Position numbers and translations under genes: made by a program
Notes under the pieces: generated by a model
Told to the model about the DNA's origin: nothing
The model's input: only the letters and a program-made list of their open reading frames with translations
The model's database searches: none
DNA from: Helicobacteraceae bacterium CG2_30_36_10
GTDB taxonomy: Bacteria > Campylobacterota > Campylobacteria > Campylobacterales > Sulfurimonadaceae
Assembly (NCBI GenBank): GCA_001873135.1
Contig: MNYP01000035.1
Span: forward strand, 1 to 41,952
Direction: 5' to 3'
Length of the DNA stretch: 41,952 nt
Shown here: positions 38,526 through 41,952 of the stretch, in pieces
Layout of the letters: each line of letters begins with the position of its first letter
Position numbering within the stretch: position 1 is the first letter of the stretch

Positions 38526-39433
38526 TAGATGATAAAAAATTAACACATCTAAGACAACTAGAAGCAGAGTCCATTCATATAATGAGAGAAGTTATTGCAG
38601 AGTTTGATAACCCTGCGATGCTTTACAGTGTTGGCAAAGATAGTGCTGTTATGCTGCATCTTGCAATAAAAGCATTTTACCCATCAAAATTACCATTTCC
38701 ACTTCTACATGTAGATACTACCTGGAAGTTTAAAGAGATGATAGCGTTTCGTGATAAAAGAGTAAAAGAGTTAGGATTAGATTTACTTGTACATGTGAAT
38801 CAAGATGGAATTGACCAAGGTGTTGGTCCATTTTCTCATGGTAGTAAAGTGCATACTGATATCATGAAAACAGAAGGCTTAAAGCAAGCATTAAACAAGT
38901 ATAAGTTTGACGCAGTTTTTGGCGGGGCTAGACGTGATGAAGAAAAAAGTCGTGCCAAAGAGAGAATATACTCTTTTCGTGACAAATTTCACAGATGGGA
39001 TCCAAAAGAGCAGCGTCCAGAGCTTTGGAATTTGTATAACGGAAATGTAAATCAAGGAGAAAGTATAAGAGTTTTTCCTCTTTCAAACTGGACTGAACTT
39101 GATATTTGGCAGTATATTTACCTCGAAGGGATTCCAATAGTACCTTTATACTTTTCACAAAAACGTCCTGTCGTACAAAAAGATGGCATTAAAATTATGG
39201 TAGATGATGAGAGAATGCCTATTGAAGAAGGCGAAGAGATAAAGTATGAAAGTATAAGATTTAGAACTTTAGGTTGTTATCCACTTACTGGTGCAGTTGA
39301 TTCTACGGCTTCAACACTACCTGAAATTATTCAAGAGATGCTTTTAACAAAAACGAGTGAGAGACAAGGAAGATTAATCGATTCTGATTCATCTGGTTCA
39401 ATGGAAAAAAAGAAAATGGAGGGATACTTTTAA
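38522..39433 (+). CDS. cysD: Sulfate adenylyltransferase small subunit
   Basis: The 303-residue subunit transfers AMP from ATP to sulfate, forming APS. It has the PP-loop SVGKDSAVM (36-44), [18 protein letters not shown] and [15 protein letters not shown], all typical of CysD. The ATG at 38522 overlaps the cysH stop (ATGA); an upstream in-frame TTG at 38495 lies inside cysH and is unlikely. The last residues end KKKMEGYF, a normal C-terminus. It acts with CysN, whose gene starts in its stop codon (TAATG). Confidence 0.95.
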
Positions 39434-40722
39434 TGGGTAATTTACTAAATACGGATATAGAAGAATATTTAAAGGTTCATGAAAACAAAGAACTTTTAAG
39501 GCTTATCACTTGTGGAAGTGTAGATGATGGAAAGAGTACTCTTATAGGAAAACTTCTTTATGATTCTAAGATGATATTTGAAGACCAGCTTGAGGCTATC
39601 ACAAAAGATAGTAAAAAAAGCGGAACAACCGGAGATAAAGTTGATTTGGCCCTTTTAGTTGACGGACTGGCAAGTGAGCGTGAGCAAGGTATTACTATTG
39701 ATGTTGCCTATAGATACTTTACAACAGAGAAGCGAAAGTTTATCATAGCTGATACTCCAGGTCACGAACAGTACACTAGAAACATGGCTACCGGTGCCAG
39801 TACGGCGAATCTTGCTATTATCTTGATAGATGCAAGATATGGTATACAAACGCAAACTAAAAGACACAGTTACATTGCGAGTCTTTTAGGTATAAAACAT
39901 ATAGTTGTAGCTATAAACAAGATGGATTTAGTAGATTTTGATGAAGAGAAATATGAAAAGATTAAAGCTGATTATATTCATTTTGCAAAAGAAGTTGGTA
40001 TACACGACCCAATTTTTATCCCTATAAGTGCACTTGATGGAGATAATATAGTAAATAAAAGTGACAAATCTCCTTGGTACAAAGGTGAGCCGCTTTTATC
40101 TGTTCTTGAGACTATTGAAATATCAAAAGATATAAACTTTGATGACTTTAGATTTCCTGTTCAGTATGTTAATCGTCCAAATCTTGATTTTAGAGGATTT
40201 AGCGGAACCATCGCGAGTGGAGTTATAAATGTTGGAGATGAAATCGTAGCGCTTCCTTCAAATAAAAGGTCAACTATTAAATCTATTGTTACCTATGATG
40301 GGGATTTAGAAGTTGCTTATGCGCCTATGGCGGTAACTTTAACTCTTGCTGATGAGATAGATATAAGCAGAGGTAATGTTATCGTAAAAGCCGATAATAT
40401 CCCTGATATAGCTGATGAGTTTGATGTACATGTCGTATGGATGAGTGATAAACCTTTAACTATAGGCACAAGGTATGAAATAAAAAAAGGAACCAGTACG
40501 ATTGCAGGTTTTTTTGATGAAATTCATTATAAAAAAGATGTCAATACTCTTGAACATATACATGTAGATAAACTAGAATTAAATGATATAGGCTATGTAA
40601 AATTAATACTTTCAAAAAGTGTTGTATATGATAGCTACGATGTGAACAGACAAACTGGTAGATTTATTATTATTGAGAAGTACACAAATAAGCGATATTA
40701 TGTAGCAAACGCACAAAAATAA
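39433..40722 (+). CDS. cysN: Sulfate adenylyltransferase large (GTPase) subunit
   Basis: The 429-residue GTPase drives APS synthesis by CysD. GTP motifs are GSVDDGKST (28-36), DTPGHEQYTRNM and NKMDLVDFD, followed by two beta-barrel domains. It is somewhat shorter than E. coli CysN (475) and is not fused to an APS kinase (CysC), consistent with the APS-type CysH next door that needs no PAPS. It is the last gene of the DUF2061-cysH-cysD-cysN operon. No sulfite reductase is in the window. The 3' end converges with a small minus-strand gene 15 bases away. Confidence 0.95.
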   Translation: MGNLLNTDIEEYLKVHENKELLRLITCGSVDDGKSTLIGKLLYDSKMIFEDQLEAITKDSKKSGTTGDKVDLALLVDGLASEREQGITIDVAYRYFTTEKRKFIIADTPGHEQYTRNMATGASTANLAIILIDARYGIQTQTKRHSYIASLLGIKHIVVAINKMDLVDFDEEKYEKIKADYIHFAKEVGIHDPIFIPISALDGDNIVNKSDKSPWYKGEPLLSVLETIEISKDINFDDFRFPVQYVNRPNLDFRGFSGTIASGVINVGDEIVALPSNKRSTIKSIVTYDGDLEVAYAPMAVTLTLADEIDISRGNVIVKADNIPDIADEFDVHVVWMSDKPLTIGTRYEIKKGTSTIAGFFDEIHYKKDVNTLEHIHVDKLELNDIGYVKLILSKSVVYDSYDVNRQTGRFIIIEKYTNKRYYVANAQK

Positions 40723-40737
40723 TCTAAATTTTTTTAG

Positions 40738-40959
40738 CTACTTTTTCACCAGAAATTTAATAACTTTCTCTAAGCTTCTCTTTTTTGTGATTACGACTTC
40801 ATCACCAAGCTCTAAGCCATAATCATCATAGAGCTTTTCGAGGGCTAAAGTCATTACGGCAGTAGTTATATCGTTTGAGCTGTCCAAGAAGCCCTCATCA
40901 TACTCGCAGATAGTTATTTGACCTGTTTCTTTGTTGTATTCTAGGGTTTGGGTTGTCAT
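40738..40959 (-). CDS. Small acidic protein coupled to the HNH endonuclease gene
   Basis: The 73-residue protein is acidic in its first two-thirds and basic at the end (KKRSLEKVIKFLVKK). No family is recognised; LELGDEVVITKK resembles a small beta hairpin such as in AbrB-like or SH3-like domains, but that is weak. Its ATG shares a base with the stop of the HNH gene (TAATG), so the two are translated together. It could be an immunity, antitoxin-like or accessory protein, or unrelated. I am fairly sure it is a gene because of the coupling. Confidence 0.6.
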   Translation of the reverse strand: MTTQTLEYNKETGQITICEYDEGFLDSSNDITTAVMTLALEKLYDDYGLELGDEVVITKKRSLEKVIKFLVKK

Positions 40960-41741
40960 TAATTACAATAAGTATATTTAGATGAAATTTTTGACTTTAT
41001 TTCCGATAAAATCAAAGGCACATCTCTCTTTTTATGTATCATTCTATGGCAATTAGGACATACGGGCAACACATTGTTAAGTGCTCTGCCTATTGTTTGT
41101 TCAAGCTCAGTCTCTTCAAACATAAAAACTGGTTTTTGGTGATGAATTTCAATGAATCCTTTTCCAAAATCGCCATAAAATTCTTCAAAGTCAAAACAAC
41201 AAGCCTCACATTTTATTCTTCCATTTTTTGTGTAATGTTCTATTGCTATATTTCTTAATTGAGAAGAGCGTTCATATGTTTTAGAAGTTATAATTTTACT
41301 TGCACCTTCATTTATCGTTGTATTTTCATCAAAAATTAAAATATTCTTACTTCTTACTTTATCTTCAAAAACAATGTCAAAGCTTTTTTTCAAATCATCA
41401 GAAGCAAAATCATTATTTAATAAATAATTAACGATAGGCATATTTTCTTTTAGATAATTTCTTCCATTTTCGGTAATTTCATAATACCCTTGGTTATGCC
41501 CTGTCGTAACATAAGTCGCATATCCAAATCTTTCAAATGTTTTATGTGCATTCAAATTTCTTACAATTTGGTCAAATTTTGTATCGTTTCTACCCGATAA
41601 TATTTCAGCATCTTCACCTATTGGCTTAAAGATGGCAGTTAATTTTTCTCTTAATATGGTAGTTGTTATTTGTCTGTTTTGGGAATTATCCATCAACATA
41701 AGAGATGGTAAAACTAATTGCTCTTCTGTAATTCTCGCCAT
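40959..41741 (-). CDS. HNH endonuclease with N-terminal winged-helix region
   Basis: The 260-residue protein has a C-terminal HNH nuclease domain: C178 and C181 (IKCEACCFDF) and C228 and C231 (VCPNCH) should bind a structural zinc, and H200-H201 (FIEIHHQKPV), N223 and H232/H236 make the metal-dependent active site. The first 110 residues look like the Mrr_N-type winged helix of restriction proteins (YYEITENGRNYLKENM). Such proteins are restriction enzymes, often of the modification-dependent kind, or stand-alone defence nucleases. No methyltransferase is seen inside the window. It is followed by the coupled 73-residue gene, and its start lies 150 bases from a probable transposase. Confidence 0.8.
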   Translation of the reverse strand: MARITEEQLVLPSLMLMDNSQNRQITTTILREKLTAIFKPIGEDAEILSGRNDTKFDQIVRNLNAHKTFERFGYATYVTTGHNQGYYEITENGRNYLKENMPIVNYLLNNDFASDDLKKSFDIVFEDKVRSKNILIFDENTTINEGASKIITSKTYERSSQLRNIAIEHYTKNGRIKCEACCFDFEEFYGDFGKGFIEIHHQKPVFMFEETELEQTIGRALNNVLPVCPNCHRMIHKKRDVPLILSEIKSKISSKYTYCN

Positions 41742-41892
41742 AATTTAAACCTTTTTTCTTTTTACCCCAATAATTCCATACCAAATTAGACAACAAGCCA
41801 ACTTGCTCTATAATTAGGTACTTTAAAGCGAAAAAGTCACACCTAAAATTTTCACCTATCGGGTGTAACTTTTTCTAACTTGGAATTGAATT

Positions 41893-41952
41893 ATGCCTCA
41901 AACAATATTAAACTTCAATATCGAAACAACAAACGAGAAATTAACACCTAGA
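41893..41952 (+). CDS. N-terminal fragment of a probable IS1380-type transposase (runs off the window)
   Basis: Only 20 codons are present: MPQTILNFNIETTNEKLTPR. The start resembles IS1380-family transposases, which begin with a TQ-I-L-F segment and then LTPRAGL-like residues. The call is from pattern memory and is tentative. If right, the insertion-sequence end lies in 41742-41892, where ACACC (41840s) and GGGTGT (41863-41868) form a small inverted repeat. Confidence 0.45.
   Translation, partial: MPQTILNFNIETTNEKLTPR

Follow-up and report, generated by a model that had tools for sequence, protein, structure and literature searches.

Siguier and colleagues, writing in 2009, are said to have used the term 'transporter IS' for IS1595-family insertion sequences with passenger genes. 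Duplication of 8 bp of target DNA is a trait of this family. Both mobile insertion cassettes (MICs) and insertion sequences that carry passenger genes have been described (PMC3129680, available sections), as has the presence of restriction–modification (R-M) systems on insertion sequences and transposons (PMC4176335, PMC3031569 and PMC8649781, available sections). R-M systems are widely disseminated, and insertion sequences and transposons figure among the carriers listed in reviews; no delineated family of compact R-M transposons was found in the papers cited. The available sections of PMC12707154, PMC4444841, PMC7371123 and PMC11092175 do not describe the element reported here. R-M-carrying IS1595 elements in this phylum were likewise not described among the literature matches listed, which cover few subscription journals, and a prior description is possible. 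Here we analyse one complete contig of 41,952 bases (C111, hereafter the window) from a genome assembled in 167 contigs (G000). A nuclease gene and a small-protein gene in this window are, with a probability that we put at about 0.85, the right-hand end of an IS1595-family transposon carrying a type II R-M operon.

Both genes lie on the minus strand. The nuclease ORF (40959-41741) encodes 260 amino acids and is a winged-helix/HNH endonuclease, probably the restriction enzyme of an R-M system linked to a D12 methyltransferase. The ORF that follows (40738-40959) encodes the 73-residue small protein, which in related elements forms the 3' end of the R-M operon. The two ORFs described in the initial annotation were confirmed, as was their one-base overlap, TAATG. 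For the nuclease, pN was well under pS in comparisons with homologues, and the small gene is under purifying selection (pN 0.09-0.34 against pS 0.59-0.77, seven homologues). Upstream of the nuclease gene, a 23-bp remnant of a methyltransferase–endonuclease gap (41742-41764, minus strand) contains an A/G-rich, ribosome-binding-site-like stretch, as does the corresponding gap of a related locus, L022. It is followed by the 5' end of an IS1380-like insertion sequence (41765-41952, plus strand, starting CCCCAATAATTCC), which is cut by the contig end. The transposase that had been reported beside the pair is the start of this IS1380-like gene (from 41893), of which the window holds only the first 20 codons.

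The second border of the pair, opposite the IS1380-like element, is a transposon terminal repeat within a cysN-type ORF (39433-40722, plus strand). Repeat scans placed this 24-bp terminal inverted repeat of an IS1595-family element (CGATATTATGTAGCAAACGCACAA) at 40693-40716 on the plus strand, and it equals the repeat of the elements in genome G317 without mismatch. An A/T-rich spacer (40717-40737, minus strand), terminator-like by eye and similar in L022 and L149, separates it from the stop of the small gene. Within G000, the 24-base pattern gave a single match, the one in the window, at up to one mismatch (control, none), and a 17-base core had no other match at up to two mismatches, with the backwards control also giving one match. 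The host/transposon junction falls at 40692/40693, and cysN residue 421 begins exactly at the repeat: residues 1-420 are host-encoded, and the last nine codons (residues 421-429, RYYVANAQK) and the stop codon are encoded by transposon DNA. All 10 close cysN relatives, drawn from 20 relatives, align to the window protein only through residue 420 or 421. Nine of these are complete, at 459-487 residues, and one runs off its stretch; the window ORF is some 30-58 residues shorter than the complete nine. Here a host gene has its C-terminus and its stop codon supplied by a transposon end. The 8 bp before the junction (CAAATAAG, 40685-40692) are presumably a target duplication, of which the window has one copy; the partner would fall beyond the contig. 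Contig C149 of G000 carries another cysN, 61% identical. The small gene was also considered, and rejected, as part of the cysN neighbourhood, conservation with cysN being what the initial annotation had named as refuting it: the product of the small gene is present in 3 of the 149 genomes searched, the window's own included, and was absent from all 10 other genomes that have a close cysN.

The repeat occurs in 16 of 397 genomes of the phylum at up to one mismatch, with no backwards-control match among the matches listed, and the transposase occurs in 18; the E. coli search gave no match. Outside the window, two repeats (at up to two mismatches) were found at 14 places, namely L022 and 13 others. 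Three of these are identical 4602-bp elements in G317 that have different flanks and end on both sides in CGATATTATGTAGCAAAYGCACAA; one copy (L161) has an 8-bp duplication. Overall, the 8-bp duplications are perfect at eight of the 14 places (L022, L152, L161, L163, L166, L167, L168 and L173) and imperfect, with agreement at 3-6 of the 8 positions, at six (L148, L149, L164, L165, L172 and L174). The L149 transposase matched PF12762 (E 6.5e-36) and PF12760 (E 1.2e-14), both above cutoff, and scored 122.9 bits against the NCBIfam IS1595 model NF033547 (cutoff 75). These data demonstrate that the relatives are mobile as whole units, bounded by inverted repeats and 8-bp duplications. A single repeat was found in the window and at L147, L157, L169, L170, L171 and L175-L178. 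When element and cargo genes were sought there by tblastn, L170 and L177 gave only pieces of the 147-residue gene described below, and L169, L171, L175, L176 and L178 gave none.

The fullest relatives consist of a repeat, a protein of about 147 residues, the transposase on the opposite strand, a small HTH or DUF6471 gene, a methyltransferase, an endonuclease, the small protein and a second repeat. In the G317 elements the regulator-like gene is of the DUF6471 type, and a winged-helix-only gene stands between the methyltransferase and the HNH nuclease. The 147-residue gene (L149:862-1305 and relatives) lies between repeat and transposase in the transposase-bearing elements; it has no Pfam or NCBIfam match and is possibly a transposition accessory. 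The G317 copies, L152, L165, L166, L167 and L172 have an intact transposase frame; in L163, L164, L168 and L173 it is interrupted. L022 has no transposase and retains 40 residues of the 147-residue gene; together with its own duplication, this makes it a transposase-less cassette.

A DNA methyltransferase gene is present at 13 of the 14 two-repeat places, broken in L173; L174 is a 1550-bp two-repeat remnant in which tblastn detected none of the element or cargo genes sought. Pfam or PADLOC recognised an endonuclease at 10 of the 14. The cargo is the HNH endonuclease in L022 and the three G317 copies, AlwI in L167, an AlwI-like enzyme with two D12 methyltransferases in L168, a PADLOC type II enzyme in L166, NgoBV in L163 and L172, and HaeII in L165. 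L152 and L164 combine an N6/N4 methylase with a protein that belongs to no known family, and L173 is related to L164 but decayed; L157, where one repeat was seen, has type III genes. Closely related transposases accompany unrelated cargo (L149/L152, 84% identity; L157/L167, 88%; L165/L172, 86%), showing that R-M cargo varies among elements with closely related transposases.

A search with the small protein matched 39 of the 397 phylum genomes at E <= 0.01, of which we kept eight (E <1e-5) and a fragment in G357; the matches in the 30 that were dropped are chiefly short and inside ORFs of about 1190 residues. Searches of plasmids, phages and viral contigs gave no relatives. No Pfam, NCBIfam or PADLOC model describes the protein, and the family has weak matches to PHROG 30440 (unknown function; E 6e-4, from L148), DUF6290 (E 0.051) and RelB (E 0.06). 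A low-confidence structure model (mean pLDDT 58, two-row alignment), too poor for a fold search, suggests a strand-strand-helix-strand-strand arrangement. Homologues lie directly after R-M genes, on the same strand, in L022, G317, L152, L157, L166, L167 and L168; in the last three, additional ORFs separate the small gene from the repeat. Identity to the window copy is 84% in L167 (AlwI) and 75% in L157 (type III), compared with 62% in L022 and 55% in L149, which both have a nuclease of the window's family. Because the closest relatives stand beside AlwI and type III enzymes, the small protein follows the element, or R-M in general, rather than the window's nuclease.

Whether it serves the element or the restriction system is a closer question. 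A function in transposition or element maintenance, and not in restriction, is the alternative that survives best, and we hold it to be a real possibility that falls somewhat short of even odds. The protein tracks the element more than the cargo, and the distance from its stop codon to the repeat is similar in the window, L022 and L149. Distant homologues come after a type IIG-like gene in L153 and after an N6-methylase gene in L156, and neither locus gave a window-type repeat. L153 (at 2527, minus strand) and L155 (at 2534, plus strand) have in common, near such homologues, a diverged sequence like the first half of the element repeat (CTCTTATGTRGCAAAGTAACCCAAGTCA), and the loci that bear it are possibly a sister element family; near the homologue in L156 lies the remnant of a transposase. 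These three loci may therefore be relics of sister elements, which weakens the case for a role in R-M. On the other hand, the small protein was undetected (E 1e-3) in L163, L164, L165, L172 and L173, even though the transposase frames of L165 and L172 are whole, and where it stands beside R-M genes it is on their strand and directly after them. Its absence from L165 and L172 leads us to lean slightly towards restriction. More specifically, it could be a general helper of R-M, perhaps one that holds restriction back while the transposon settles in an unmethylated host. Such a helper would work with type II, IIG and III enzymes, and its presence in the 3' part of the element would let the family accept and swap R-M systems. 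We offer this last proposal tentatively and consider it rather unlikely in that form.

The nuclease has a core of the form CxxC...HH...CxxCH, with these residues common to all six aligned sequences and the catalytic motif intact. Its N-terminus is winged-helix-like, with a sub-threshold match to Mrr_N. In a structure model (mean pLDDT 69.9), residues 6-99 form helices and strands, and the HNH part spans roughly residues 160-237; Foldseek returned no match at E <= 0.001 for this model, and the best rows, from E 0.012, were mostly winged-helix regulators. Free-standing winged-helix genes homologous to the N-terminus were seen at L148:3630-3971, L159:2910-3215 and L160:3374-3697, adjoining methyltransferase-like genes (some judged by eye); they are possibly a recognition or control module.

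Close relatives of the nuclease, at an identity of at least 40% over nearly the full length, are few (eight): L022, L023, L024, L025 and L030 from the genome collection, G317 (three copies) and G357 from the 397 phylum genomes, and phage record PV036456 (40% identity over 91%). The best named relative is from a Sulfurimonas MAG, and the window's genome is therefore probably Sulfurimonas-like. Among 16 matching phylum genomes, only G000, G357 and G317 have the full-length nuclease, the others matching its HNH or winged-helix part. L023, L024, L025 and L030 are not within a repeat-bounded element of the IS1595 type. A D12 adenine methyltransferase stands beside the nuclease in all eight close relatives examined. 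Its gene is directly upstream in L022, L023, L024, L025, L030 and G357; in G317 the winged-helix-only gene intervenes, and in the phage (L146) it is on the opposite strand, one gene away. The phage nuclease gene (PV036456.1) is also near an integrase and an excisionase. A Pfam scan of six of the eight methyltransferases gave a D12 match for each (L022, L030, L147 of G357, phage L146, L023 and L025). The G317 enzyme is matched by PADLOC models for type II methyltransferases and shares 77% identity with that of L022, and the L024 enzyme was placed by identity comparison, at 62-67% to five others. The L022 methyltransferase scores above the cutoff for the Dam subfamily, and among solved structures in the PDB its best relative is the methyltransferase of the DpnII system, 2dpm. 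Judged by the gene neighbourhood of its close relatives, the window's nuclease is best interpreted as a restriction endonuclease of type II, and the defence function proposed in the initial annotation gains support from the same neighbourhoods.

It is also possible, if improbable in our estimate, that the nuclease is a type IV, modification-dependent enzyme of the McrA/Mrr kind, which cleaves foreign DNA when it is methylated and requires no methyltransferase. Type IV restriction is recognised by a modification-recognition domain (SRA, NEco) or an Mrr catalytic domain; a Pfam scan, which may miss some recognition domains, found no SRA, NEco or Mrr catalytic domain in the nuclease. The Mrr_N-like N-terminus fits a type IV enzyme, as do the sole PADLOC match, a weak one to the type IV model mREase_IV (E 2.5e-4, residues 173-240), and the best PDB profile match, to 5-methylcytosine-specific restriction enzyme A (6ghc, E 5.9e-4); these last two matches, however, span the generic HNH core only. 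Modification dependence would account for survival without a methyltransferase, and no methyltransferase was seen in the stretches viewed around three distant relatives of 25-32% identity (H1, H2 and L028; H1 and H2 are the two top-ranked, and inspected, of 194 plasmid records, mostly matching the HNH core only). The link to a methyltransferase is therefore limited to the close nuclease family. Within that family, the constant D12 neighbour speaks against type IV: a methyl-directed nuclease beside a working methyltransferase would attack the cell's own DNA unless the two enzymes have different sites.

Another proposal is that nuclease and small protein form a toxin–immunity pair in which the 73-residue protein serves specifically to inhibit this nuclease. 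The one-base overlap suggests coupled translation, the small protein has 14 D/E against 9 K/R, and a homologue has the RelB-like match mentioned above, below cutoff. Against this, the protein accompanies unrelated R-M types and is more alike beside AlwI and type III enzymes than beside nucleases of the same family, and tblastn (E 1e-3) found no relative of it at five such nuclease loci (L023, L024, L025, L030 and phage L146). A dedicated immunity role is thus very unlikely; the small protein follows the transposon, not this nuclease.

The IS1380-like element occupies the spot where the relatives have their methyltransferase gene. Its 5' DNA recurs at 13 other places in G000, and the N-terminus of a decayed copy matched the IS1380 model at E 6.2e-4 (18.5 bits, cutoff 180). 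The element sits at many contig ends (14 places in the genome) and is probably a main cause of assembly breaks. That it mobilised the nuclease pair itself, which it adjoins, is hardly credible, as its start has 11 different flanks at 12 other places, the other side of the pair is an unrelated IS1595-type repeat, and the relatives in L022 and G317 lie in elements that lack it. The mobile module envisaged in the initial annotation is supported, with an IS1595-family element as carrier and the adjacent IS1380-like element as what broke it. The gap between insertion sequence and nuclease resembles the methyltransferase–endonuclease gap of L022, so the IS1380-like element was probably inserted between the two genes, and a methyltransferase gene probably lies, or lay, on its far side. 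Elsewhere in the 92%-complete assembly there was no second repeat, no transposase and no cognate methyltransferase (sole match, a partial one of 43% to a D12 gene on contig C166), so we infer the left part of the window's element.

The C166 gene belongs to a DpnII-like locus (L075:1195-3467), a D12 methyltransferase and a DpnII endonuclease domain, downstream of an insertion sequence remnant; the DpnII match begins at model position 124, and other short ORFs precede it. Among four-base palindromes, GATC (19 against 112 expected) and GGCC (20 against 81 expected) are strongly avoided in the window. GATC avoidance was rejected as evidence on the window's nuclease, as the DpnII-like locus could explain it.

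The type II reading suggests the following course of events. The nuclease would cut unmethylated DNA at the site that its missing Dam-family partner would protect, and the transposase would move the whole unit. R-M cargo would favour retention of the element, because its loss exposes the cell to leftover endonuclease. Without a methyltransferase the nuclease should harm the cell unless it is silent or its sites are protected. The simplest answer may be silencing: the IS1380-like insertion would have separated the nuclease from the operon promoter as well as from the methyltransferase, leaving it silent, or else another methyltransferase would protect its sites. The small protein may assist or moderate the restriction exerted by whichever R-M enzyme is carried, a step that we hold weakly. 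In this family the boundaries are exact and target duplications are present; it also includes a cassette that naturally lacks a transposase (L022), cargo that has been swapped, and a small protein that is conserved alongside unrelated restriction enzymes. Two questions thereby become testable: how safe entry of a restriction enzyme into an unmethylated cell is achieved, and whether a transposon is stabilised by R-M cargo.

Compared with known systems, the close relatives resemble type II R-M systems with a D12/Dam-family methyltransferase, such as DpnII, in having an adenine methyltransferase directly upstream of the endonuclease; the endonuclease here differs in being a winged helix joined to HNH. 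In the IS-linked movement of PaeR7I, R-M genes moved with insertion sequences under selection by restriction, mostly through co-integration at a resident insertion sequence according to the available sections of PMC3031569, whereas here the R-M genes are inside the element. Tn7-like transposons with defence cargo, which often includes R-M in the account available (PMC8649781), are similar in that respect, but the elements described here are smaller (2.9-7.9 kb at the 13 places with R-M genes) and have a single DDE transposase. L022 is like a MIC, with repeats and a duplication around cargo and no transposase (PMC3129680 and PMC4444841, in the sections available), and differs in its R-M cargo and in keeping the 40-residue remnant of the 147-residue gene. 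The IS1595 'transporter IS' (PMC3129680, available sections) are alike in their IS1595 transposase, inverted repeats, 8-bp duplications and extra genes inside. The present family is set apart from these by a methyltransferase at 13 of 14 two-repeat places, by unrelated R-M types with related transposases, by a small regulator-like gene that recurs, and by the small protein at the 3' end.
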